The position numbers and the translations under genes were made by a program. A DNA stretch of 64,000 nt, taken from NCBI RefSeq assembly GCF_050003625.1, contig NC_134398.1, positions 99,179,479 through 99,243,478 of the forward strand. The letters are read 5' to 3'. A model generated the notes under the pieces. It saw nothing but the letters and a program-made list of their open reading frames with translations. It was not told the DNA's origin and did no database searches. Below are positions 12,683-43,362 of the stretch, piece after piece (positions within the stretch are counted from its first letter, which is position 1; every line of letters starts with the position of its first letter). This DNA comes from Haematobia irritans. Its lineage: Eukaryota; Arthropoda; Insecta; Diptera; Muscidae.

Positions 12683-12723
12683 AAACTGTGTGCTCCGCTG
12701 TTCAAATCCCCGTCCGGCAAAAG

Positions 12724-12783
12724 GTAAAATTTTAAAAATTTATAAAAATTTTAATAATTTCTTCTACAATGTTTGTATTACAG
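12724..12783 (+). other. Conserved GT...AG segment after the tRNA-like module
   Basis: Begins GGTAAAATTT directly after the tRNA-like end and closes with a pyrimidine-containing ...TTTGTATTACAG. The same arrangement recurs at about 28480, 31077 and (inverted) 18474-18533, so it is a family trait. It looks like a short intron of about 60 bp; splicing is inference. Confidence 0.4.
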
Positions 12784-13119
12784 AAAAAGGTGCTAAGAAC
12801 TAAAAAACCTCGTGGAAGTGAGAAAGATGTCAGAGAGTATACAATTAGGCAGAAAAAAATTGAGAACCACCTTCTTTGGGAGAAAATTCTTCTAACATTT
12901 TCTAATATTTTTGGGCTCAAAATTCTTCCAAACATATTATATGTTCACATAAAATAAACATAATAACATATAGTTTTTGGGAAGACAACATTATTGAATT
13001 TGGATGGAAAAATACAAAATCTTTAGATCTTAGACTACCCAAACATATTATATTGTTAGACCAATATGCTTTCAAATATATTGTATATTGGAAGAAATCA
13101 AATATATAAATATTTGGGC

Positions 13120-14313
13120 CAGTGATGCCAGGAAGTTTTTTGAAAATTCCCTACGTGGCACCTAAAAATTCCCTTTTTTCCCTACGCCCAAAATTTTTTC
13201 CCCTACATTTTTCCCTACGGTACTAAATTCAAACAAATTTGGCAAGAAAACAACAAATATTTTATATTGAATTCAATTTCTTTAAAATTAATAGCCAGGG
13301 ATTATATCCGTCAATAAAGGGACCAAATGTTCAATAATATAACATTTTTATTCGTATTTCGAACATTGCAACATCATTGCTCATTTTTAACACAACCAAC
13401 ATTTTTCTTGTGGACTTTAATGGCCGCGTGTTTCTTCAGGTCAGATTTCTGCAAATTACGAACTTTCCACAAGCATTGGTATTTAAAATCGTCATTTTCG
13501 ACCGCCTCTAGCCAACCCTTTAAGTCAACAATGAGCCAATTTGGTCAAAAAGGCTATTTTCTAAATTTTGTTGGAATGGTTTTATGTTATTTTCTTCACT
13601 AGACGACATTTTCCTAAAACATTAAAAACTGTTGTGAATGTAACAGTTGTAAATGTAGAATAAAAATCCTACATTTACTATTTTTATGTTAGCCTGACAC
13701 CAATGCAGGACTGTTTAATGTATAAGTCATTTAAACTACATATTATTACAATACTTATTCGAGCTTATTGAACAAGTTCTTTTCAGTAACTTAATAGTAC
13801 TAATTTCCTTAATATTCTTGTCCAATAGGCTATAAGTATTGTAATAATATGTAATCCTACATTTATATACACGAATCCGCGTATGCACTGCAAGTGATCT
13901 TTGTGTTAGAAAATATTGAGAGGCACCAAGTTGACGAAGCCATCACCTGTTTATGAACCTTAATGGAAGCGTTTATTCCTGCAAATGAAATCTATTTACA
14001 CATTTGTAATTAAATACCAATGCAAAAACATCTTTTGAACTTTTCTAAATAAAATCATTACAATAACATCGTTAACGGTGAATCACGTATTCCATTAGTT
14101 GAAGCTTTGACTACCATATATTTTGGATCTTCAAATATCTGGAATATTAAGAAAAAGTACTCTTCTTGTTGCAAAATGTAGTAAACTATGGAAATTGGAA
14201 AAATTCCCTATATTTGTAGAAAAAATGAAAAATCTGTCCTTTTTCCCCTACCGATGTAATTTTAAGAAAAAATCCCTACAAAAAAGGATTTTTCCCTACG
14301 CATGGCATCACTG
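13120..14313. mobile_element. hAT non-autonomous element, copy 1 (CAGTGATGCC ends)
   Basis: 1194 bp with TIRs CAGTGATGCC...GGCATCACTG and an exact 8-bp TSD ATTTGGGC (13112-13119, 14314-14321). Near-identical copies lie at 16944-18137 and 42170-43362. On the minus strand near 13400-13550 there are remains of a BED-type zinc finger (QCLW, then LQKSDLKKHAAIKVH), broken by a stop and frameshift, so it derives from an autonomous hAT. Confidence 0.93.
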
Positions 14314-14397
14314 ATTTGGGCAATACCCAAAAATTTACATGCTTGAAGCAAAATGTGTTTGGGAGTATATGTTACAGAAGCTAATTTTTTTTGGGTG

Positions 14398-15341
14398 TAC
14401 TCACCTTTATACACTACAATCCAAATAATAAAAAAATAATCTTATTGAACATAACATAACAACAAACAACAAAACTTTAAATATCTTACAAATTATTTGT
14501 AAACACTTTTGCATAGATAATTCGATTTCCTTCCTGTTGGTGTCATAAAACTGCATTAAAACTAATTAATATGGGGCAATATGAAATTAGGAACGTGCTG
14601 AGCCGCGTGTTAGAAAAGATTTTCAGCAGAAGGAAATCACAAAATATCCACCTTAAACTGACAATAGGATGTAAATTAAACTGACGATGTGATGCAAATT
14701 TTCAAAAAATATCAAGTTTTTAAATATTTTAATTGGTTGCACTTTGAAATGTTTTTGGAAACTTTTTCTTCTCGATAAGCCACTCATTTTTTTATCGGTC
14801 AGCTTCTTAATGTTTGCAGAGAATGTAGCATCAAAGATTTTAGTTTTCTGCAAAGAAATTTAAGTTTAGTTACTTCTCTAAATTGTTGATTTAATTTTTC
14901 ATATTGACTTACCAAATATTATAAACTATTTGAAGCAGTCCCAGTTAATCCAACATTTTTTCATCGGTCAGATTTTTAATGTTTTCAAGAACGTAGAATC
15001 CATAATTTTAGTTTTCGGCAAAGAGATATACATTTAGTGACTTCTTTAATGTTTTATTTCATTTTCTATTTACACTTATTTGGAGTAAATTCAGTTATTT
15101 GTCTAAAATTTTCCAATTTTTTTATTTCTTCCAATTCCACGAACTTCGTTACACAAAGAAGTATTGAAAACCTCATGGTTTTTCGTTGCATATTAGGATA
15201 GTGTTTTGTCAAAGTTTTCTCATTACCTTCAACACCTTTTCAAAGATTTCGTCAACATTTTGGCAAATTGAAAGTAATTTGCAAATAATTTGAAGATGTA
15301 TTGAAGATGAGTTTTTTCAAATCAAGTGGAATTTATGTTGA
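14398..15341 (-). repeat. Element D fragment in palindrome 2 (left arm)
   Basis: Reverse complement of 15916-16859 and homologous to the body of 5775-7176. Its left limit is the CAC-ended element inserted at a TA (14398-14399). No coding capacity. Confidence 0.8.
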
Positions 15342-15348
15342 TTTATGT

Positions 15349-16857
<1,509 letters not shown>

Positions 16858-16943
16858 TACACCCAAAAAAAATTAGCTTCTGTAACATATACTCCCAAAC
16901 ACATTTTGCTTCAAGCATGTAAATTTTTGGGTATTGCCCAAAT

Positions 16944-18137
16944 CAGTGATGCCATGCGTAGGGAAAAATCCTTTTTTGTAGGGATTTTTTCTTAAAATTA
17001 CATCGGTAGGGGAAAAAGGACAGATTTTTCATTTTTTCTACAAATATAGGGAATTTTTCCAATTTCCATAGTTTACTACATTTTGCAACAAGAAGAGTAC
17101 TTTTTCTTAATATTCCAGATATTTGAAGATCCAAAATATATGGTAGTCAAAGCTTCAACTAATGGAATACGTGATTCACCGTTAACGATGTTATTGTAAT
17201 GATTTTATTTAGAAAAGTTCAAAAGATGTTTTTGCATTGGTATTTAATTACAAATGTGTAAATAGATTTCATTTGCAGGAATAAACGCTTCCATTAAGGT
17301 TCATAAACAGGTGATGGCTTCGTCAACTTGGTGCCTCTCAATATTTTCTAACACAAAGATCACTTGCAGTGCATACGCGGATTCGTGTATATAAATGTAG
17401 GATTACATATTATTACAATACTTATAGCCTATTGGACAAGAATATTAAGGAAATTAGTACTATTAAGTTACTGAAAAGAACTTGTTCAATAAGCTCGAAT
17501 AAGTATTGTAATAATATGTAGTTTAAATGACTTATACATTAAACAGTCCTGCATTGGTGTCAGGCTAACATAAAAATAGTAAATGTAGGATTTTTATTCT
17601 ACATTTACAACTGTTACATTCACAACAGTTTTTAATGTTTTAGGAAAATGTCGTCTAGTGAAGAAAATAACATAAAACCATTCCAACAAAATTTAGAAAA
17701 TAGCCTTTTTGACCAAATTGGCTCATTGTTGACTTAAAGGGTTGGCTAGAGGCGGTCGAAAATGACGATTTTAAATACCAATGCTTGTGGAAAGTTCGTA
17801 ATTTGCAGAAATCTGACCTGAAGAAACACGCGGCCATTAAAGTCCACAAGAAAAATGTTGGTTGTGTTAAAAATGAGCAATGATGTTGCAATGTTCGAAA
17901 TACGAATAAAAATGTTATATTATTGAACATTTGGTCCCTTTATTGACGGATATAATCCCTGGCTATTAATTTTAAAGAAATTGAATTCAATATAAAATAT
18001 TTGTTGTTTTCTTGCCAAATTTGTTTGAATTTAGTACCGTAGGGAAAAATGTAGGGGAAAAAATTTTGGGCGTAGGGAAAAAAGGGAATTTTTAGGTGCC
18101 ACGTAGGGAATTTTCAAAAAACTTCCTGGCATCACTG
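16944..18137. mobile_element. hAT non-autonomous element, copy 2
   Basis: Mirror image of 13120-14313, with TSD GCCCAAAT on both sides (16936-16943 and 18138-18145). It is the same insertion event as copy 1, duplicated by the palindrome. Confidence 0.93.
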
Positions 18138-18540
18138 GCCCAAATATTTATATATTTGATTTCTTCCAATATACAATATATTTGAAAGCATATTGGTCTA
18201 ACAATATAATATGTTTGGGTAGTCTAAGATCTAAAGATTTTGTATTTTTCCATCCAAATTCAATAATGTTGTCTTCCCAAAAACTATATGTTATTATGTT
18301 TATTTTATGTGAACATATAATATGTTTGGAAGAATTTTGAGCCCAAAAATATTAGAAAATGTTAGAAGAATTTTCTCCCAAAGAAGGTGGTTCTCAATTT
18401 TTTTCTGCCTAATTGTATACTCTCTGACATCTTTCTCACTTCCACGAGGTTTTTTAGTTCTTAGCACCTTTTTCTGTAATACAAACATTGTAGAAGAAAT
18501 TATTAAAATTTTTATAAATTTTTAAAATTTTACCTTTTGC

Positions 18541-18610
18541 CGGACGGGGATTTGAACAGCGGAGCACACAGTTTGTAAGCCAGCACTCTATCCACTGGGC
18601 TACGTAGCTG
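18541..18610 (-). ncRNA. tRNA-like module (Pol III A and B boxes), module A
   Basis: On the minus strand the A-box-like TAGCCCAGTGG lies at about 18592-18602 and the B-box-like GTTCAAATCC at about 18548-18557. Length and spacing match a tRNA, but acceptor and anticodon stems are not well paired, so it is a tRNA-derived module and not a working tRNA gene. Confidence 0.65.
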
Positions 18611-18721
18611 TTATTGTCATCAATAGACAATTATCGTTATAAGTTATATTTATATTGCATAGTTTGTGGCGCCCACGAGTCGATGCAAACATAACATTGG
18701 TTAACAGAAACATATATTTAT

Positions 18722-18785
18722 TGGCCACGTGGAGCAAGGGTTAGTGTGCCCGCCTTGCATGCAGAGTGTCCTGGGTTCAAATTTA
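18722..18785 (+). ncRNA. tRNA-like module, module B, divergent to 18541-18610
   Basis: A-box-like TGGAGCAAGGG and B-box-like GGGTTCAAATT, in the opposite direction to module A, about 110 bp apart. The B box is degenerate here. The shared spacer contains GGCGCCCACGAG, repeated in the copies at 28.3 and 30.9 kb. Confidence 0.6.
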
Positions 18786-19413
18786 TTAAATTTTTACAAT
18801 GAAACTTCGAAATGTGGGTTATTAAAGATTTACAGTCAGAAAATAACAGTGCTTGATATAAATGAAATGGACTGAGTTTTTGAATAAAATATTATTTTTT
18901 TATGGCAAAAATAAAAATTTTGTAACAAAAAAACGTTTTTGGTATAAAAGTTTGAAATTTTCGAAAAAATTCAAAAACTCTTACAAAAGAAGAACGTGAA
19001 GTCGAGTATAAACATAAATATTTTTCCATCGAATCCTAAAGTTAACGATATCCATTCAAAAGCACATTATATTTAAATTCTAAACAATAATTTTACAACC
19101 AACACATAAATTTATTTAGGAGTGAACAATTTTTTGCTGGCATATAACACCATTTTAATTGCATTCAAATTCTATCGTATTTAGAAATACAAATAAATAT
19201 GAATTTTTATTAACGAATAATTTCATTTTTACCTTTAAGACAGGTATTAAGTTGGCATTATTGCTCTAAAATGACCATGTTTTCGCGATTACTTTTCTTT
19301 AATAATTTATTTTAAAGGAAATAAACTTATTCAATTGTTGCTTTGGATCATTCCCCACCAATTTATAATACAATTTGTCCAAAAAAGTTATAATATTATT
19401 CTGGTTTTACCGA

Positions 19414-19463
19414 TTCGAGTTTTGCCGCTAAAATGAGAAATAATTTTAGCGGCAAAACTCGAA
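19414..19463. repeat. Perfect 21-bp hairpin, 8-base loop
   Basis: The arms 19414-19434 and 19443-19463 are exact reverse complements around GAGAAATA. A degraded version occurs at about 27610-27655 in the sister element, so the hairpin belongs to that family. Confidence 0.8.
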
Positions 19464-19515
19464 CTTAATGCCCGATTTTATTTTTGAAAGTATCCGTTAA
19501 CTCCTCTTGGACTAG

Positions 19516-26514: not shown

Positions 26515-28219
26515 TTAACAATGGCTAAAATCAACGAATTAAAGTTGCTTGACCACCCACCTTATTCTCCTGATTTAGCCAGTGACTTTTAACATACTTG
26601 TTCCCAAATCTAAAAAAACTCCTTGCTGGCAAGCGTTTTACCTCAAATGAAGATGCAATTACAGTTGTAAACCACTATTTTGAAGACCTTGAGGAATAGT
26701 ATTTTAATCAAGGGATAGAATTGCTACACTGTTAGAAAAATATGTTTTTCATATGTTCCGATATAAACAAAATGTGTTTCGGGCACAATTTTTACACACA
26801 ATGTGTTTAAGTGCAAACATGTAATGTTCCTAAACTAGCACTAAATGTTTGGGACACATACGTTAATATGTTAGAATATATTATGTTTGGAGCATGAATA
26901 TTTCATAAAAATAATATGTGTGAATGTAAACATATATAAATTTACAAATTTCGAGTAAACATATATATGTTGTGATATTTTATTCAGAGAGCGACAGAGA
27001 GAGAGAGAGAAATAGAGATCGAAACCGGGAGGGTTGACGAAAGATATCAACATAACATAGCGAGAGTATCAAAAGAGAGCAATATCTGTGAAAATACTTG
27101 TATGTTGTTTCGGAAAACTGTTTTATGGTAAGGCCAAAAATTTGATATGCTTAAGTCTAAATATTATTTAATTTGAATATTAGAATGAGTATTCGGAGTA
27201 AAGAGAATAGACATTCGGAACCAAGAGAATAGACATTTGAAAAAAACAGCATGTGTTTTTGCCGTGAGAGCAGCATTTTATGTATGTGTGGACATGTGTT
27301 TTGTTTATCATTTTGGCATTATGGGCACCATTTTTTTCTTGGTTCGTCAAAAGAAATCGGAACGTACGACGAGTAAGTCAAAATATTCAGACAAAGGAAA
27401 TTAAAAAAGCAATGGAAAATATATAAAAATTACAAAGGGATCTTCATAAAAAAACGAAAGGGCACTATTCTCTTTTTAGAGTTGGGACAGTAAAATGAAA
27501 AAGGGGAAAACAGTGAAAAATGTATAAAAACAAAGTTTAGTTCCACTTTATTAATAACTAGTCCAAGAGGAGTTGACTGTCACCTTCGAAAATAAAAGGG
27601 GGCATTAAGTTCGAGTTTTGCAGGTAAAATTATTTTTCATTTTAGCGGCAAAACTCTAATCTCCAAAAACAGAATAACGTTATAACTTTTTTGGGAAGTT
27701 ATATTAAAACTTGGTGGGAATGATCCGAATTGAAAAAGTTTATTTTCTTTAAAATGAATTATTTAGAAAAAAGTAAAAGGCAAAACATGGTCATTTTAGA
27801 GCGATAATGCCAACTTAATACCGGCCTTAAATGTAAAAATGAAATTAAGTACAAACGATAAGTTTTAAATGCATTTAAAATGGTGTTAAATGCTAGGAAA
27901 AAACTGTTCACGCCTAAATAAATTTATGTGTATATTATAAAATTATTTATGTATATTTATACTCGACTCCACTTTCTTCTTTTGTTAGAGTTTTTGAATT
28001 CCTTCCAAAATTTCAAACTTTTATACCAAAAACACTTGTTTGTTACAAAATTGTGATTTTTGCAATAAAAAAATAATATTTTATCTAAAAGCTCAGTCTA
28101 TTTCGTTTGTATCAAGCACTGTTCTTTTCTGACTGTAAATCATTAATAACCCACATTTCGAAGTTTTATTATAAAAATTTAATATAGTATAAATATAAAT
28201 GTGTAAATTAAAAAAAAAT

Positions 28220-28299
28220 TGGTGTTCGGTCAGAGCAGAGATTGAACCCACGATCCTTTGCATACAAGGCAGACATGCTAACCATTGCTCCACGTGGTA
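28220..28299 (-). ncRNA. tRNA-like module B (copy 2)
   Basis: On the minus strand: A-box-like TGGAGCAATGGTTAGCATG and B-box-like GGGTTCAATCTC, with tRNA spacing. It is part of the element at 26727. Confidence 0.7.
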
Positions 28300-28405
28300 A
28301 ACAAATGTATGTTTCTGTTAAATAATGTTTTGTTTGCATCAGCTCGTGGGCGCCGCAGAGTATGCTATATAAATATAACTAATAGTCTATTGATGACCAT
28401 AACAG

Positions 28406-28479
28406 CTACGTAGACAGTGGATAGAGTGTTGGCTTACAAACTGTATGGCCTTCGGTTCGATTCTCCGTCCGGACGAAAG
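28406..28479 (+). ncRNA. tRNA-like module A (copy 2), divergent
   Basis: A-box-like TAGACAGTGGATAGAGTG and B-box-like GGTTCGATTCTCC. It begins about 107 bp from module B and points the other way. It is followed at once by GGTAAAATTT, the start of the GT...AG segment. Confidence 0.7.
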
Positions 28480-29024
28480 GTAAAATTTAAAAAAAATAAA
28501 ACATTGAATAATTTCTTCAACATTATCTGTATTATTTATTTATTTATTGATATAATAGTACAACAAGTATTGACTTATAACAGTACTACATTTAATTTAC
28601 AGTTATTTTATTTTTAATACATTTAAAGTAATTATATTAAGATGTTAAACAAAAAAAAAATAAAAGTGGATAAGGTAAAATAATAAATGGATAAGGTAAA
28701 TAAAAAAAGTATATATGAACATTTTAAAAGGAAAGTAAAATTGAAAACAGGAAAAATTCAATACAAATTTAAAACGACTATTTGAAACACAAATTCATAG
28801 GTCCAGGAAAAATTATTAATAAAATTCTTTGATTGTTCAATGTATCAACTGTTTAAAGTGAAGTGTTTAAATAGCGCATTCTTAAATTGAAAACAATCGA
28901 GTCTAGTTGTATGTTTGAAAAATTGTCGATCTGATACTAGATATTTTGTTCTAAATGGGGTGAGGAATTCAATTCAATTCAATTCAATGAATTCAGACGC
29001 GATGATCGGGAGAGAACTATTCTA

Positions 29025-30478
29025 TCATGCAGGTACTTTGGTTGGATAAACAATTTTATGTAAAAGTAACAAACAGCGAAATTGTAGCAGATTATCAAAA
29101 GACATACAATATAGATCCTTAACACAATGCGATACACTGTCATACCTTTTCACTCCATAAACGAATCTGGCTATGTCATTAGTCACTGTTCGTAATTTCC
29201 TCGTGTGCTCCGAGTCGCAGTTGGCATAGATTTCACAGCAATACATTATTCTAGATAGTAAGTGTGTCTTGGCTATCAATTTTCGGATGTGTTGTGGAAT
29301 GAAATTTTGAACAGCCCACAAAGAGCGAAGCATACCATATGTACTGCCTACTATACCATCAATATGTCTATTCCATGATAAGCTATTGTCAAAAAGCAAT
29401 ACCTAAATTCCTAGCATATATTGCATACTCTATTATACAACTATTGAGTGTCATTGGCGGAAGTGTGTCAAGGTCGACCGTATTCCTTGCAACTACTAAA
29501 CATTTCGTCTTGACTGGGTTGATTTGTAAGCCATTTGTCAAGGCCCAGTGAGCAATACGTTCTAAGTTCATGTTTATGTTGTTGATACATGTTCCACAAT
29601 CTGATATTTCGCATGAAAAGCATAGCTGTACGTCGTCTGCATATATGTGAACTTGACAGTCCAGAGGTAGGACCCTAAACAGAACCCTGTGGCACACCTC
29701 TTATGAGCTCGATTGGCCGCGAATAAATTCCATTTGCAACGACTATTTGCCTTCTTCGACTCAGGTATGAAGAGAGAAGTGAGCATGCAGTACCATCAAA
29801 GCCAAATCTTGCACTAAGCTTTCCCAAAAGTATCTTGTGACACACTGTGTCGAAAGCTTTGGAATGATCCAAAAGAACAAGGAAACAATACCGGTTACAA
29901 TCAATATTTCGCCGTATCTCCTCAACAACATCAACCAACACCGTGGTGCAGCTGCGACCTGATCGTTGTGTTGTATATAATCATTGATTTGCTTAAACAT
30001 AATATTCTCTAGAGCCTTTGACAAGAATGAGAGGATGACAATGGGTCTATATTCACCATTAGGTTTGGGGGTGGGTAAAATCTTTGCACTTCTCCAGCTA
30101 TCTGGGTATGTAGATGTCATTATTACGTGGTTGAATATGTGTGTGATTATAGGAAGAATGAATGGTAGAAGCACTTTTAAAAATCTAGGGTCACTATTGT
30201 CCAATCCCACAGCATTCGACTTAATGTCCAAAATCGATTGAAGTGTGTCACTCTCGGTCACACATCTGAATCCGAATGTATTTGTACCATTGGGAGAACC
30301 TAGTTCCTCATACAATTGTTCATCAATAGGAGGTATATCAATGTTAGCAAATTTTTGATTGAGTTCATCGGGATCTAGACCACAGGGCTTAACAGTTCTC
30401 GATTTACCAATTCCTATATTCCTTATCTCATTCCATTTCTGCTTACAGTTCACTGCATTACTAAATTTCTCCACGTAA
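29025..30478 (-). pseudogene. CR1/jockey-type LINE: reverse transcriptase
   Basis: Four overlapping frames together give an RT. 30478-29940 covers the upstream thumb-like region with EYRPIVILSFLSKALE. 29941-29675 has LLDHSKAFDTVCH (first catalytic Asp) and RGVPQGS. 29697-29389 has YADDVQL and NGLQINPVKTK. 29399-29025 ends with LSWNRHID and a short thumb. Frameshifts at about 29.94, 29.69 and 29.39 kb, and a stop after GVPQGSV. No RNase H follows. Confidence 0.85.
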
Positions 30479-30812
30479 TACACGCAAAGAAAAAAAAAAA
30501 ACGTTTGGAAAACGTGTACCGAAAACGTTTTTCTTTTGTTAGAGTTTTTTGAATTGCTTAGAAAATTTTAAACTTTTATCACCAAAAAAATTCGTTTATT
30601 ACAAAATTTTTATTTTTTCAATAAAAAAAGTTATTTTTGAAACAACAACACCGTCCATTTCGTTTGTATCAAACACTGTTCTTTTCTGACTTTATGTCTT
30701 TAACAAGACACATTTTACAGTTCAAAATTTAATATACTACAATGTAATTTTTTTTTCGAAATCTTCCGAACATATCTGGAATACATGTACAAAATAAAAA
30801 AAAAAAAAAAAC

Positions 30813-30888
30813 TGTGGTCGAAGCAGGGATCGAACCCACGACCCTTGGCGTGCAAGTCGGACGTAGCAACCACTGCTCCACGGTGCCA
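30813..30888 (-). ncRNA. tRNA-like module B (copy 3)
   Basis: Best-kept module. Minus-strand A-box-like TGGAGCAGTGGTTGCTACG and B-box GGGTTCGATCCCT, the latter fitting the Pol III consensus GGTTCGANNCC. The cloverleaf arms other than the T arm are weak. Confidence 0.75.
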
Positions 30889-31001
30889 AACTAAATGTTT
30901 GTTTCTGTTAAATAAACTTTGTTTATTCGGTTCGTGGGCGCCGCAAGCTATGCTATATAAATATAACTTATATGGATATTTATCTATTGATGACCATAAC
31001 A

Positions 31002-31077
31002 GGTACATAGCTCAGTGGTTAGTGTGTTGGCTTACAAAGTGTATGGTCTGCGGTTCAACTCTCCGTCCAGGCGAAAG
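31002..31077 (+). ncRNA. tRNA-like module A (copy 3)
   Basis: A-box-like TAGCTCAGTGGTTAGTGTG and B-box-like GGTTCAACTCTCC, divergent to module B and about 114 bp from it. Followed by the GT...AG segment 31078-31139. Confidence 0.75.
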
Positions 31078-31139
31078 GTAAAAAAAAATTTAAAAATTTA
31101 TAAAATCGTATAATTTCTTCTACATTGTTGGTATTACAG
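31078..31139 (+). other. Conserved GT...AG segment (copy 3)
   Basis: Starts GTAAAAAAAAATTT and ends TTGGTATTACAG, with the same flanks as at 12724-12783. Length (about 60 bp) fits small fly introns; use as an intron is unproven. Confidence 0.4.
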
Positions 31140-31395
31140 GAAAAGGTGTTAAGAACTAAAAAACCTCGTGGATTGGAGAAAGATGTGAGGGAAAATGCAG
31201 TTAGCAAGAAAACAATGTTTTTTTGAGGTAGTATTTATGAAATTGTTTTTACATCCTGGAAAAGAATAAACGTTTATCACAAAAAGTATATACTTTTCTT
31301 CCAAATACACTTCCTTACAGCGAAAAGCAAATGAGAAACGAACTTTGTTTGTCTAAAATTTCGTTTGGGAGGAAAGAATTATTTTTTTGCGTGTA

Positions 31396-31704
31396 TGACC
31401 TTTTCGAATCCTTAACTCTGTTGACTACTTCTCGCCGTAGTAATTTAAATTCTTCCCTTATCCTAGGTGTTTTAAAACGTTTCCAACGTCGATAAGCCTC
31501 TTCGCTCCTCAATATCAGTTCCCTTATGTCATTATTGAACCATGGTTGTTCCTTAGGTCGAACTGATTTTACCCCAAGGGGAACATGTTTGTTATAAAGA
31601 GCACGTATATAATTCTCGAAGAGAGTCACTTTGTCGTCAATATTATCTAGCTGGTAAATCTTGTTCCATTGCATATCATTTAGAGCAGATGTGAGCTCAG
31701 TATA
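31396..31704 (-). pseudogene. CR1/jockey-type LINE: linker between endonuclease and RT
   Basis: The minus-strand frame reads MQWNKIYQLDNIDDK...PWFNNDIREL and RRWKRFKTP, the usual region after the endonuclease (K.PWF..DI). It continues after the nested element as YYVEKFSN at 30478. A frameshift separates it from the endonuclease at about 31.70 kb. Confidence 0.8.
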
Positions 31705-32351
31705 TTAATTATTTTTAAAATCCCTAAACATGAAAGTGTCTGTAATACGAGGTACTGGAAGATTGGATGAAATAAAGATCATATCGTGTCTTGAAAAAGT
31801 AGAATAACTAATTTGGTCATAACAGTTGCATCGATCCAGGTCCGATACTAGAAATAGGTCTAATAAAGTATTGTAGGTGCTGCCATAGTGTGTCGGAGTG
31901 TTGTCATTGACGGAATGCAAACCTATGGCATTGAACTCTCTTATCATACTACCATCCTGCAATATATTTGAGTTAAAGTCACCCGCGATTATAATGTCCT
32001 CGTATGACAAAGAAATTGTTCTCAACACATCCAGAAGTGGGGCAATCTCAATGAGTATATTCGGTCGGTAAACAGTCCCTATAAGAATACTACGATCTGA
32101 GCAATGTAACGCCAGAAACAAATATTTCATTAAGCTTTCAGGTCCGGATGAGCGCAAAATCCTAACTGGTATACCTTTTCTCACATATATTGCTGCCCCG
32201 CCAGCATGACTAGGCCTATCAGCCCGATAAACATCGTAACCGTCAAGATTAATAATATCATTAGTCAAATCTTTCCTAAACCACGTTTCTGAAATGCAGA
32301 TTACATCAATATTCGAATTTATGAAAAGGTATCTAAATTCATCCACACGCT
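31705..32351 (-). pseudogene. CR1/jockey-type LINE: endonuclease domain
   Basis: AP-endonuclease-like fold motifs in order: VICISETWF, GGAAIYVRKGI, IAGDFNSN, THYGSTYNTLLDLFLVSD, and SRHDMIF in place of SDH. The Ser-Asp-His block altered to SRHD is unusual but may be a lineage feature. The start is cut by the element at 32352, beyond which SLVKKL at about 33330 continues the frame. Confidence 0.85.
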
Positions 32352-32671
32352 CACAAAAAATCGCTTCTGTAACATATACTCCCAAACATATTTTGCTTCA
32401 AGCATATACATTTTTGGGTATTGCCCAAACATTTATATGTTTGATCTCTTCCAATATATAATATGTTTGAAAGCATATTGGTCTAAACAATATATGTTTG
32501 GGTAGTCTAAGTTCCAAACATTTTGTATTTTTGCATCCAAATTCAATAATGTTGTCTTCCAAAAAACAATATGTTATTATGTGAACATATAATATGTTTG
32601 GAAGCATTTTGCACCCAAAAATATTATATGCTTAAAAAAATTCTCCCAAACAATATTGTGCTCAAAATTTT

Positions 32672-32760
32672 ATTTATTTATTTATATATTTACAATCATA
32701 ATGAATTATGAAAATAAACAGGTAATGTAGGTGCTAACAACATAGGTTTTCGACCTGAAT
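32672..32760 (-). mobile_element. Very short 5'-truncated LINE insertion with 12-bp TSD
   Basis: An 89-bp insert flanked by GCTCAAAATTTT on both sides (32660-32671, 32761-32772). On the minus strand it ends in TAAATAAATAAATA, like the tail of the LINE at 28535. The flanking element copies lack it. Confidence 0.75.
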
Positions 32761-32910
32761 GCTCAAAATTTTGTTTCTGCCCAATTGTATATTCCCCCAC
32801 ATCTTTCTCACTTCCACGAGATTTTTTAGTTCTTAGCACCTTTTTCTGTAATACAAACATTGTAGAAGAAATTATTCAATTGTATGATTTTTTTTTATTT
32901 TAATTTTACC

Positions 32911-32955
32911 TTTTGCCGGACGGGGATTCGAACAGCGGACCACACAGTTTGTAAG
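32911..32955 (-). ncRNA. Truncated tRNA-like module A (copy 4)
   Basis: Keeps the B-box-like GTTCGAATCCCCG and the TTACAAACTG centre. The A-box half is replaced by unrelated sequence from 32956. Confidence 0.55.
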
Positions 32956-33638
32956 GATCAAAGAAGTAGCTGATCAATTGCCCAAGGAAAAATAAAATGT
33001 TAATTTTGTAATAACAAGCAACAACCACCAACTTAATTCAATATCGCTCCCTGTTAAATAGCGCTCCAAGCTACTAAACACATATATGTTTATAGGCTAT
33101 TTCTAAATTAATATATGTTTGCATCCAAGCATATTATATTTACAAACATTTTATGTCCCAAACATAATATGTTCTAACATATTAACATATTGTCCCAAAC
33201 ATGTTATGCTAGTTTATGAACATTATATGCTTGCACTCAAAAATATTGTGTTTAAAAATTTGTGTTCCAAACATATAATGTTTATAGCCAAACATATGAA
33301 AAACAGTCTTTTTCAACCGTGCAGTTTCTTCACCAGACTTTGAGCATTTAAGTGCACTACCTTTAGACCTGGATGATACTTTGATAGGATTCTCAACATA
33401 CTATAAGTACTAACTGTGGATATGCCATAATTATTGCTAAATAGTGACATAATTAATATAAATATTACTTGGAAGAACCACTTCACTTTGAAATATGACG
33501 CTATGCATTTTGTGTGAGCAATGTGTCAGAATTGAAAAATTATGTTTCAGTTTTCCTTCAATTAAAAAATGTCGAGAAATTAAAAACCTTATACTAGAGA
33601 GTAAGTTAAAGACAATATAAAAATCATTATTTAAAACG

Positions 33639-34354
33639 TCAACGAAAAAAACGATTAAGCTGTTCCATTGTGTCAATCATTTTAGGTTCATCCGACTCAG
33701 AAATTTTGATATTGACAATACCTTTAATAGTAAAGGCACTATGAATCTTTTTTTCTCTTCTGAGTTTTAATGCAGACATTAGTATTTTATGATTATATGG
33801 TGTTAAATTTTCATAAACATAGAATGGAGTAGAAGAATCAAATCCAATTTGATTCAAAGTAAGTGGAGATTTGTTCGTTTTTCTGTAATTTGATATTGCT
33901 CGTATCATAAAGTTCTTTTCATAAGGTGTTCCAAGCTTGGCCACAATGGCTGCATCAACAATCTTACGCTTTTCCTTTATGTTTCTAACTCGGTAAATTG
34001 ATGTCAAATTGATATTAGAAACTTGCAGTGCGTTACAAATGTCTGAAAAAATGGACACTAGATTTTCGTTGTTGTGTGAAGGAATACCCGTGATGCGTAT
34101 ATCAGACGCTACATTCGCATTTTCGTGCTGTAATATCTTTTTTTGTAAATGCAATATTTGATCATTATGTTGTAGCGACTCATTTTTTTCTGTTTCCAAT
34201 TTGTTTATACGTTCTTTTAATTCAGCTATATCGTTGTGCGCATTCACAACACTTTCCTTTAAATCATTGAGTTCGCTTTTAATATCTCTCAGAATTCTTT
34301 TCTCAATATCACAAAATCTCTTATCTATTTCTGTCATGAGACGATACTCACTCT
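33639..34354 (-). pseudogene. CR1/jockey-type LINE: ORF1 C-terminal part
   Basis: About 237 residues with a coiled coil (LKERINKLETEKNESLQ...ILHLQKKILQHE), then an RNA-binding-like region (DIRITGIP, VYENLTPYNHKILMSALKLRREK, a pattern common in insect LINE ORF1 proteins), ending RFFR*. The N-terminal half lies at 36015-36413 beyond a hAT-like insertion; removing the insert gives QQQQIQQSEYR in frame. Confidence 0.8.
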
Positions 34355-34657
34355 GTTGAATAACCCAGCAAAAAAAGAGCTTCCAAAAAAGTAGTTTGGA
34401 TCCCCAATCTGTGATCCGGAAGTAGTGCAAACTTGGATCATCTCCAATGAATTTTACATGGGCTTGTCATAGGACGGAAGTACTCCCTTTTTGGATCCTT
34501 TGCATTGCTTTAGAAGTTGTGCCCTGGAAGTTAATTTGAACGAAGAAATTTAAAAAGCGAAAAAAATTTTTTTCAACCAATTTCACTTTTTTTCCATATG
34601 TTTTATTACACTATTATTTTCCTATTATCTAATTTTTACAATTTGAAAAACTTTTTC

Positions 34658-34731
34658 GCTCCGACCAGGGATTGAACCTGGATTGGCTGGCACCATAACA
34701 GAACGCCTTAGCACACTCAGCCACAAACGCC
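34658..34731 (-). ncRNA. tRNA-like module of a different type (long variable arm look)
   Basis: Minus strand: A-box-like TGGCTGAGTGTGCTAAGG and B-box AGGTTCAATCCCTGG, with a longer middle part as in Leu/Ser tRNAs. A second B-box-like AGGTTCAAATCCCAG lies on the plus strand at about 35079, giving again a divergent arrangement. Acceptor ends do not pair. Confidence 0.6.
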
Positions 34732-35250
34732 ACTGCACATAAAGCGTCGAAAGGTCAATTCAAATGTTTGTGATATGATCGTAATACGACACCAAGGAAT
34801 AACACTCTAATTGCTTCTCGAGATGTTCTTTATTAGGATGAACGAAAAAAATAAGAAACGCAGATTCAAATCTCACCAGCGGCAATTTTTTTATCAAATA
34901 TTTTTCTAAAAAAAATATTTTTTTTATGCTATGCATCGTTTTTATTTTTTATTTTTGGCATATATTTTCGTATAAATATATTTTTTCCATTAAAAATCAA
35001 CAAAAAAATTAAAAATTCTCGTAATTTGCAAAACCGTCTCAAACGAACTTCCATGGAAGCGAAAAAGTCAAACGGCACAGGTTCAAATCCCAGCGGGGAT
35101 AAAATTTATGTTTTTTTATTATTATTATTTTTACTTTTTTATTAATTTTCTATTTTTTTATTATTTTTTTTTATTAGTTTTCTATTATTTTGTAAAATGT
35201 AATTGTCCAAAATTTGCACTTAAAATAGCCTGATTGCGTTCTTTCTAATA

Positions 35251-35493
35251 CTTGTCCACAAGGACTGCATCGGAAGTAGAAAAAAATCATTGGGGATCCG
35301 AAGATGCGCTTTAGAAGAAATGTTTGTGTACTTGTCCAAAAGGTCTGCATCGGAAGTGGAAATAAATAATTGGGGGATCCCACGATGCTCTTTAGAAGAA
35401 ATGTTTGTGGACTTGTCCAAAAGGACTGCATCGGAAGTTGGAAAAACTCGATGGGGGATTCTGGGATGGGCTTTAAAAGAAATGTTTGTGGAA
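35251..35493. repeat. Tandem repeat, three units of 80-81 bp
   Basis: Each unit starts CTTGTCCAAAAGGACTGCAT and ends AGAAGAAATGTTTGTGGA; starts are at 35251, 35331 and 35412. Open frames through it on both strands are repeat artefacts. Confidence 0.85.
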
Positions 35494-36103
35494 CAACTTC
35501 CAATTTTTTTTTTGCTGGGAAGCTGTTGCATAGAGTCCCAGCAAAAAAATTTGGAAGTTCTTCCAAAGGAACAACTTTAAAAGCACTTCCAGAAGATGCA
35601 CTCCCAATGATGTTCTTTATTTGAACTACCCAGGAAGTTCTTTTAATTCAATTTTTATAACTTGTTTTTTTTTCATATTTTTAAAGGGCAATTTTAACTT
35701 TTTTTGTTTCAAATAGGTTAAAAACAGAGTAAAAATTCATAAAATGGAGAAATCATTTAAATTTTGTCAACAAAAATAATAAATCCAATCTGAAAAAATT
35801 GTGAATTTTTGAAAATATTTGAGGTCAAACGTTTCTGAGAAGCGTTAGAATCCATTAAAAATTATAAAAATTATTTATTTGACAAAATATCACAGAATTT
35901 TTTAATTTACATCCAAAACATTGAATTCGGATCACACCTAAAGAAGTGATGCAAATTCAGTGCAACGGTTGTTGAAATGGAGGACTTCAGTCCTATGACA
36001 AGCCCATGTTAAATTCATCGCTTCTGCGTCAATTTTGCACCACTTCCAGATCCAAAAAGAACATTTTCATTACATTTTTGGCGACGCTTTTTTTTGCTGG
36101 GGT

Positions 36104-36500
36104 GGTGAATTTGTTGTTGTTGCTTATCAAACCTTTTTTCAATGAGGTTGAGTAAGCGAGTTGGAGAAGCATATGTGGAGGCGAGTGGAGTTTTCTGTAC
36201 ATTGTACTCTTCTAAAAGTCTTTTACGCTGGGGTGCTGCTAAGAGGGGATTCCTAGTAGACGTTGTTTTTGTAGGTGTTGAATCTTTATTATTTTCTTGT
36301 GGTGAGATGGTATCCATCTGTTGTTGCACAGAGTTCTCAAAAAGAGATCGATTTGTAGTTTCGGCAGCTTCGTTGCTTGTATGTGGGGCATTGATTATTG
36401 ACTGGGCATGCATTGTTGCTGTTGTTGTAGTTTGGTTTGTTTTTATTTTGCTCTTTGGACTTTCTCGCTTTAATTCTGTTGTAGTTTGTAAATGAGTTTA
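36104..36500 (-). pseudogene. CR1/jockey-type LINE: ORF1 N-terminal part
   Basis: The minus-strand frame encodes a Ser/Thr/Asn/Gln-rich start (MHAQSIINAPHTS), SPTRLLNLIEKRFDKQQQQIH and then the insertion point of the hAT-like element; about 100 residues are genuine. Low-complexity N-terminus before a coiled coil fits LINE ORF1. Confidence 0.7.
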
Positions 36501-37048
36501 TTATATTTATAAACTTTTTATTAACAGTGATGCCAAAGTGACAAATAACACTCTTGCAAGAAAGTATAATTTATAGATATTTTACTTTAATTAATTTTTA
36601 AATATGAAATTTGTTGGCAATATTATAAAACGTAGTTTTTTTGTTGGAGCAGCACGAAACACGTCTAGCTTTCTCAACGATACAGAAGAAGGTGCCAAGA
36701 ACTAAAATATTTCGTGGAAGTAAAAATTATGTGAGAGAATGATCACAATATTCTTTGGGGAAAATTCTTCCAAGTATATAGTATTTTTGGGCTAAAATTC
36801 TTCCAAACATGTATGTTCACTTAAAACAAACATAATAATGTTTCGGCAGTATCCAATAATATATGTGCTTCCTGCAAAATATGTTTGGAACATATGTTAG
36901 AGAAGCGATTTTTTTTGGGGGTGTAGAAAAGCGTTGGACTAAGTGTATTGAAGATTCAGGAGATTATTTTGAAAAATAAAAATATTTTTGAAAAACTAAC
37001 TATTCTCTTTCATTGATAGGCTAAGAAGTTTCCGAACCGCCCTCGTAA

Positions 37049-42169: not shown

Positions 42170-43362
42170 CAGTGATGCCAGGAAGTTTTTTGAAAATTCC
42201 CTACGTGGCACCCAAAAATTCCCTTTTTTCCCTACGCCCAAAATTTTTTCCCTACATTTTTCCCTACGGTACTAAATTCAAAAAAATTTGGCTAGAAAAC
42301 AACAAATATTTTATATTGAATTCAATTTCTTTAAAATTAATAGCCAGGGATTATATCCGTCAATAAAGGGACCAAATGTTCAATAATATAACATTTTTAT
42401 TCGTATTTCGAACATTGCAACATCATTGCTCATTTTTAACACAACCAACATTTTTCTTGTGGACTTTAATGGCCGCGTGTTTCTTCAGGTCAGATTTCTG
42501 CAAATTACGAACTTTCCACAAGCATTGGTATTTAAAATCGTCATTTTCGACCGCCTCTAGCCAACCCTTTAAGTCAACAATGAGCCAATTTGGTCAAAAA
42601 GGCTATTTTCTAAATTTTGTTGGAATGGTTTTATGTTATTTTCTTCACTAGACAACATTTTCCTAAAACATTAAAAACTGTTGTGAATGTAACAGTTGTA
42701 AATGTAGAATAAAAATCCTACATTTACTATTTTTATGTTAGCCTGACACCAATGCAGGACTGTTTAATGTATAAGTCATTTAAACTACATATTATTACAA
42801 TACTTATTCGAGCTTATTGAACAAGTTCTTTTCAGTAACTTAATAGTACTAATTTCCTTAATCTTCTTGTCCAATAGGCTATAAGTATTGTAATAATATG
42901 TAATCCTACATTTATATACACGAATCCGCGTATGCACTGCAAGTGATCTTTGTGTTAGAAAATATTGAGAGGCACCAAGTTGACGAAGCCATCACCTGTT
43001 TATGAACCTTAATGGAAGCGTTTATTCTTGCAAATGAAATCTATTTACACATTTGTAATTAAATACCAATGCAAAAACATCTTTTGAACTTTTCTAAATA
43101 AAATCATTACAATAACATCGTTAACGGTGAATCACGTATTCCATTAGTTGAAGCTTTGACTACCATATATTTTGGATCTTCAAATATCTGGAATATTAAG
43201 AAAAAGTACTCTTCTTGTTGCAAAATGTGGTAAACTATGGAAATTGGAAAAATTCCCTATATTTGTAGAAAAAATGAAAAATCTGCCCTTTTTCCCCTAC
43301 CGATGTAATTTTAGGAAAAAATCCCTACAAAAAAGGATTTTTCCCTACGCATGGCATCACTG
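42170..43362. mobile_element. hAT non-autonomous element, copy 3, in the RT active site
   Basis: 1193 bp, CAGTGATGCC...GGCATCACTG, exact 8-bp TSD GTGGATGA (42162-42169; 43363-43370) that is itself the VDD coding sequence. Almost identical to copies 1 and 2, including the same broken BED-finger remnant on its minus strand. Confidence 0.95.

Follow-up and report, generated by a model that had tools for sequence, protein, structure and literature searches.

The window, meaning the whole 64-kb stretch of DNA that was analysed, carries at 30481..31393 a short transposon, termed C1, that is inserted in a LINE and holds two tRNA-derived modules facing away from each other. Positions are those of the window, and the evidence for each feature is given in brackets.

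30479..30480, no strand: TA target duplication, left (sequence; LINE frame)
30481..31393, plus strand: whole element C1, a non-autonomous DNA transposon of 913 bp (LINE frame restored; genome matches)
30481..30488, plus strand: terminal inverted repeat CACGCAAA (start of 55 of 57 full copies)
30791..30810, minus strand: A-rich run, on the minus strand a T run directly after the A-module (sequence)
30814..30887, minus strand: A-module, tRNA-derived and SINE-head-like, B box 30826-30836 (box scan; tRNA and SINE alignments)
30888..31000, no strand: inter-module spacer with GGCGCC (30937-30942) and TATATAAATA (30954-30963) (sequence)
31001..31077, plus strand: V-module, tRNA-derived, A box 31008-31018, B box 31052-31062 (box scan; tRNA alignments)
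31078..31139, plus strand: GT..AG intron-like segment, 62 nt (sequence; exactly missing in locus L040)
31143..31160, plus strand: exon block, conserved, AAGGTGTTAAGAACTAAA (22,004 genome matches for splice site and block)
31386..31393, minus strand: terminal inverted repeat, right, TTTGCGTG (end of 52 of 57 full copies)
31394..31395, no strand: TA target duplication, right (sequence; LINE frame)

The TA boundary of C1, which the preliminary description had derived from the LINE reading frame, was borne out: excision of the insert together with one TA (2 bases) restores the frame and leaves one stop in ~265 LINE codons, whereas joins that drop 0, 1 or 3 bases instead leave at least 10 stops in every frame. 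The two divergent modules with A- and B-box-like words, their GGCGCC-containing spacer (~113 bp in C1) and the GT..AG segment followed by an AAGGTG(Y)(Y)AAGAACTAAA block were likewise found in the C1 sequence as described, and the block has five matches in the 64-kb window against 0.02 expected. The A box of the A-module was taken as 30870-30880 (TGGAGCAGTGG); the box scan favoured the overlapping TGGCACCGTGG at 30878-30888. A TATA motif lies 54 bp upstream of the V A box, and the minus-strand T run after the A-module is a possible Pol III stop.

At least four copies with CAC..GTG ends had been reported in the window; C1 stood as given, and the borders of the other three listed were corrected. 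The copy reported at 26727-36923 (C2) consists of two parts, 26727-28534 and 36681-36923, with ~8.1 kb nested in its GT..AG segment, and was inserted at TA within a mariner whose paralog provides the empty site. That reported at 32352-33321 (C4) begins at 32346 and is flanked by a CA duplication; its CA join yields 145 open LINE codons over the joint versus 81-105 for three other joins, and may also be expressed as 32345 with 1 base dropped, which gives the identical join. The third, reported at 16860-19515 (C3), has a true end at 16860, but at 19515 mariner begins, and a 1.2-kb element lies inside it at 16944-18137. The A-module of C3 ends at its B box, and C4 has neither A-module nor V A box.

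26727..28534, plus strand: C2, left part, with CACTGTTAG end, modules and donor (TA duplication versus mariner paralog)
36681..36923, plus strand: C2, right part, past the nested LINE and other inserts (sequence comparison)
32346..33321, minus strand: C4, of a lineage without A-module and without V A box, CA duplication (lineage copies; LINE join)
16860..16943, minus strand: C3, outer piece with the sole true end (sequence comparison)
18138..19515, minus strand: C3, inner piece, up to the mariner start (sequence comparison)
12683..14397, plus strand: perfect inverted duplicate of part of C3 (sequence comparison)

Two further observations were made around C3. A perfect inverted duplication of 2659 nt (12683-15341 and 15916-18574, with 574 nt between the arms) represents either a palindrome of very recent date or an artefact of the assembly. 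The 1.2-kb repeat inside C3 recurs in inverted orientation at 42170-43362, 99% identical, with ends like CAGTGATGCCA..TGGCATCACTGG.

The C1 family was searched genome-wide (genome size 1.17 Gb). A pattern of 3' splice site and exon block, with up to 3 mismatches, gave 22,004 matches (control 0). The search with C1 itself returned 1914 candidates, 40 of which were scored; 37 of these 40 cover positions 1-913 and the remaining 3 begin at 10-11, at 93-95% identity, the window copy itself set aside. A consensus of 918 bp was built from 20 fetched copies and the window copy, with a mean pairwise identity of 97.1%. The window and 79 loci, 80 sources in all, provided 57 unique full-length places, picked for reaching both ends, and 42 partial matches were excluded; L022 and L026, which have common flanks, count as one entry among the 57 and as two in the set used for the 918-bp consensus. 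A separate sample of 30 copies (the first by place, with 0 mismatches, on one chromosome) was taken with a mostly C1-type pattern and is therefore biased toward the C1 sub-family; both modules were present in 27, both ends in 22, and both ends together with both modules in 21. C1 is therefore confirmed as a genuine element, and its family, with members of ~910 bp, is uniform and abundant and may account for ~1-2% of the genome (~22,000 copies of ~0.9 kb, with both ends in 22 of the 30 sampled).

A perfect 2-bp duplication was found at 54 of the 57 full-length places (TA 41, CA 6, TG 4, AA 2, TT 1), and the other 3 are without one. The fixed ends, with CACGCAAA at 55 of 57, and the constant short duplication are those of a cut-and-paste DNA transposon or MITE, and removal of the insert regains the empty site for C1 and C4 in the LINE and for C2 as judged by the mariner paralog. 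The 3' tail and variable-length duplications of a SINE were not found in the family, whose two ends are fixed and whose duplications measure 2 bp; the SINE trait of a tRNA-derived head with A and B boxes was found in the modules only. Tc1/mariner-type MITEs are short and non-autonomous, reach thousands of copies and have inverted ends and a TA duplication. The C1 family resembles them in size, non-autonomy, copy number, inverted ends and 2-bp duplication, and differs in its tRNA-derived modules, its inverted repeat of only about 8 bp and its duplication, which is TA in 41 of the 54 cases and another dinucleotide in 13.

The core, comprising A-module, spacer, V-module, GT..AG segment and exon block, is common to C1, C2, C3 and seven further copies (L077, L096, L098, L085, L103, L090 and L079). 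Compared with the C1 consensus, and where present, the TATA segment is 90-100% and the GGCGCC segment 83-100% identical; L103 is without the TATA segment, and L079, L085 and L098 are without parts of the A-module. Lineages that share the core are 15-33% divergent over most segments (per-segment identities mostly come from single copies; L084 and L073 were aligned and are untabulated), with module order and position identical, and beyond CAC the ends of C1 are unlike those of C2 to C4. The divergent core is thus common to lineages with different ends. Three copies (L048, L106 and L107) keep both ends without the core and may be deletions that followed insertion. The C4 lineage, with neither A-module nor V A box, was found at L071 (the L040 locus), L082, L092 and L093, all 98-99% identical to the window copy.

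The tRNA likeness of the modules was measured in several ways. A two-box scan of the window, with up to 3 mismatches in total, gave 4 hits. Three fall in C1's family and the fourth (34668-34723) lies in a different element; in 60 Markov sequences the mean was 0.12 and the maximum 1. Alignment to tRNAs of the same genome (six isotypes in ten sequence forms) gave the V-module consensus a score of 50, with tRNA-Ala(TGC) as the best partner and 26 as the maximum of 100 shuffles, and the A-module consensus a score of 47, with tRNA-Lys as the best partner and a shuffle maximum of 28; four further module copies, from C2 and C3, scored 33-40 versus shuffle maxima of 25-28. Shuffles in these tests, as in the SINE-head, folding and flank tests, conserve letters and not neighbours. 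It had been suggested that the modules be scored as tRNAs, which gave no support: the Rfam tRNA covariance model found no match at E<=10 and hence no tRNA-gene cloverleaf, ARAGORN at default settings called no tRNA in the modules, its relaxed settings gave weak calls only, some of them outside the modules, and the folding of the modules does not surpass that of letter shuffles (z 1.6 and -0.6).

Outside the transposon family, the A-type head has 16 matches in 342 kb of examined sequence. Twelve of these were read, and have a longer repeat in common over the examined sequence; left out were L080 (a family piece), L115 (a tRNA) and the two short matches L032 and L104. The longer repeat is a standalone SINE of ~330 bp, with a tRNA-derived head, a body and an ACCTAA-like tail in seven aligned copies (L103, L069, L079, L107, L018, L058 and L060). 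Exact border repeats were seen in two of the seven (13 bp in L079, 9 bp in L107), repeats of 8 bp at less fitting distances in L103 and L018, and none in L069, L058 or L060. Its first ~90 nt match the A-module (alignment scores of 103 for C2, 93 for C1 and 69 for C3; maxima of 200 letter shuffles 26-28, that of C2 being 27), and in C2 the alignment extends past the tRNA part, through GAACACCAA..TTTTT to the T run. The SINE differs from the C1 family in its length, its body and tail, and its longer border repeats where found. Since the A-module matches the head of the standalone SINE and is without body or tail, it is probably a captured head of this local SINE; capture in the reverse direction, from transposon to SINE, is possible. 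For the V-module, which has no known parent, the same 342 kb yielded a single match of 35 bp beyond the family. A member of the transposon family is inserted into the ~330-bp SINE in L039, and one adjoins the SINE in L103 and in L107.

The preliminary description had set the element apart from SINEs as a DNA transposon with divergent modules. The TA preference and the presence of the divergent modules in the consensus agree with this, but homology links the A-module to a SINE head, and the difference from SINEs therefore lies in the mode of movement and not in the origin of the A-module.

Taken together, the element is very probably a MITE-like non-autonomous cut-and-paste transposon that carries its ancestral divergent tRNA-derived modules as passengers. 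A transposase presumably made elsewhere would act on the ends, with insertion mostly at TA and 2 bp duplicated. The ancestor of several sub-lineages would have had the divergent tRNA-derived modules in its centre, on either side of a TATA-bearing spacer, followed by the GT..AG segment, and its A-module would probably derive from a local SINE's head. The modules would be stable passengers, present in most sampled copies, with putative activity, and a transcription unit could begin with TATA, V-module and GT..AG segment, either of Pol II with splicing or of Pol III with help from TATA.

A doubtful but possible alternative traces TATA, V-module, intron and exon block to the 5' end of a Pol II gene that an autonomous ancestor left behind. 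The position of TATA before the V A box is consistent with such an origin, as is the GT..AG segment, which measures 62 nt in C1, 60 in C3 and 64 in C4 (73 in C2, computed across the nested insert) and whose ends and length fit a spliceosomal intron, making it a candidate for splicing. Past the acceptor, frame 0 is open for at least 18 codons in all four window lineages, but no start codon leads into it in C1, and the exon has 0.217 shared changes per site against an average of 0.107; a protein-coding exon was rejected on these two grounds. The exact spliced-junction pattern has one genome match (control 0), which is L040, a complete C4-type element with its own CA duplication from which the GT..AG segment is exactly missing. 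A shorter junction pattern with up to 3 mismatches gave 12,361 matches (control 2) and also fits unspliced copies, and among the matches listed, with 32 loci inspected (34 taken: 30 loci and 4 fetched), exact loss of the segment was seen at the L040 locus only. Deletions of 40-80 nt occur twice in the 57 copies, and the estimated chance expectation of an exact loss in ~22,000 copies is ~0.06, assuming an even spread and allowing for the 2-bp AG homology. The single loss, for which chance could almost account, is suggestive only as a trace of splicing.

A working role of the modules as internal Pol III promoters or TFIIIC sites, which would aid the element by way of transcription, insulation or the capture of host factors, is unlikely. 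In its favour, 51 of the 57 copies have an unaltered V A box, the T run follows the A-module, TATA is conserved across lineages, and the four boxes together have 31 changes in the 57 copies versus 61 in random windows. This depletion has a P of 0.13, however, as do the shared changes (1 versus 4.6 expected), and singletons are not fewer than expected (25 versus 19), so that box constraint is not significant and the depletion would be a hint at most. The Rfam and folding results also speak against working modules, and so does the C4 lineage, whose copies have neither A-module nor V A box and are 98-99% uniform over the 4 loci seen besides the window copy. The recruitment of TFIIIC, outward Pol III RNA and insulation put forward in the preliminary description thus gained no support from the boxes or from the spread of this lineage. 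Because the core-less copies keep both ends and the C4 lineage is so uniform, the modules are probably dispensable for movement; they may have effects of other kinds.

The broadest form of this idea appears improbable: a family of ~20,000 copies would spread a two-way promoter cassette of outward-facing, SINE-derived Pol III heads and a TATA spacer, each of its insertions would seed a TFIIIC-binding or transcribing site, and the GT..AG segment would be spliced at a rate sufficient for a spliced form, L040, to return to the transposon pool. Pol III, insulator and splicing roles of the element are putative.

Little probability was likewise given to two separate SINE insertions that came to lie back to back by chance in a DNA transposon. 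The match of the A-module to a SINE head would fit, as might an A-rich word of low complexity that flanks the module pair (9 nt in the consensus, equalled in 49 of 500 shuffles, and 10 nt in C2, equalled in 14 of 500), but SINE body and tail are missing, order and position of the modules are constant in lineages 15-33% apart over most segments, and for neither module do the 40-nt flanks have a common word that exceeds shuffle lengths. If it happened, it was a single event in the common ancestor. Independent SINE insertions copy by copy were rejected, with the core shared across lineages and 21 of the 22 sampled two-ended copies carrying both modules in fixed places; that co-occurrence, which had been suggested as the check on the consensus, argues for one element and against chance SINE insertions. 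Modules confined to some copies and bordered by duplications of their own, named beforehand as the sign of such insertions, were not found among the sampled copies of the C1 family. Mere chance likeness to tRNA boxes is next to impossible, for although looser two-box settings show no enrichment (14 window hits versus 12.3 expected) and relaxed ARAGORN calls also fall outside the modules, the strict box scan and the tRNA and SINE-head alignment scores far above shuffles rule it out.

Whether or not the modules act, the family is an added source of tRNA-like sequence in the fly genome, and opposed tRNA-derived pieces in an abundant short DNA transposon are a real and unusual build in which the function of the pieces is putative. 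SINEs are otherwise known to scatter Pol III or TFIIIC sites through genomes; if the modules act, a cut-and-paste element would be doing so here, and its young copies would offer a direct test through insertion polymorphisms. The Twin SINE of Culex pipiens is reportedly a retroposon with two tRNA-related units in one direction. So far as the available account of Twin goes, the C1 family shares with it the two tRNA-related units in one short repeat and differs in being a DNA transposon with divergent units. In the accessible part of PMC3272025, where Twin is also mentioned, HaSE2 of Helicoverpa armigera is treated as a SINE with a 3' part from mariner. By that partial account, HaSE2 (PMC3272025) resembles the C1 family in that a single repeat family unites a tRNA-derived SINE head with DNA transposon sequence, mariner-like in HaSE2, and the C1 family is set apart by its transposon ends, 2-bp duplications and internal SINE-like heads facing apart. 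Even without function, the family shows a DNA transposon of great success in which a SINE-like head has become fixed, a reversal of HaSE2 as there described. Nothing nearer than HaSE2 was found in the literature, of which subscription coverage was partial, so that this is no proof of absence from print.

Pattern scans of viral contigs mostly gave no match, one scan giving 7. Four matches in a bacterial genome scan were taken as chance: L001 and L004 have 21-23 bp of likeness only, L003 has none at the matched place, and L002 has none at the set E-value. In the window, a second element at 34364-36104 with CCAGCAAAAAA-type inverted ends has tRNA-like boxes on the minus strand at 34668-34723 and a plus-strand B box at ~35080-35090; pieces of it occur in other examined loci, without the 34668 module. 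In L108, the right part of one long relative (4-425) and the left end of a second (432 onwards) lie head to tail, within ~6 bp of each other.
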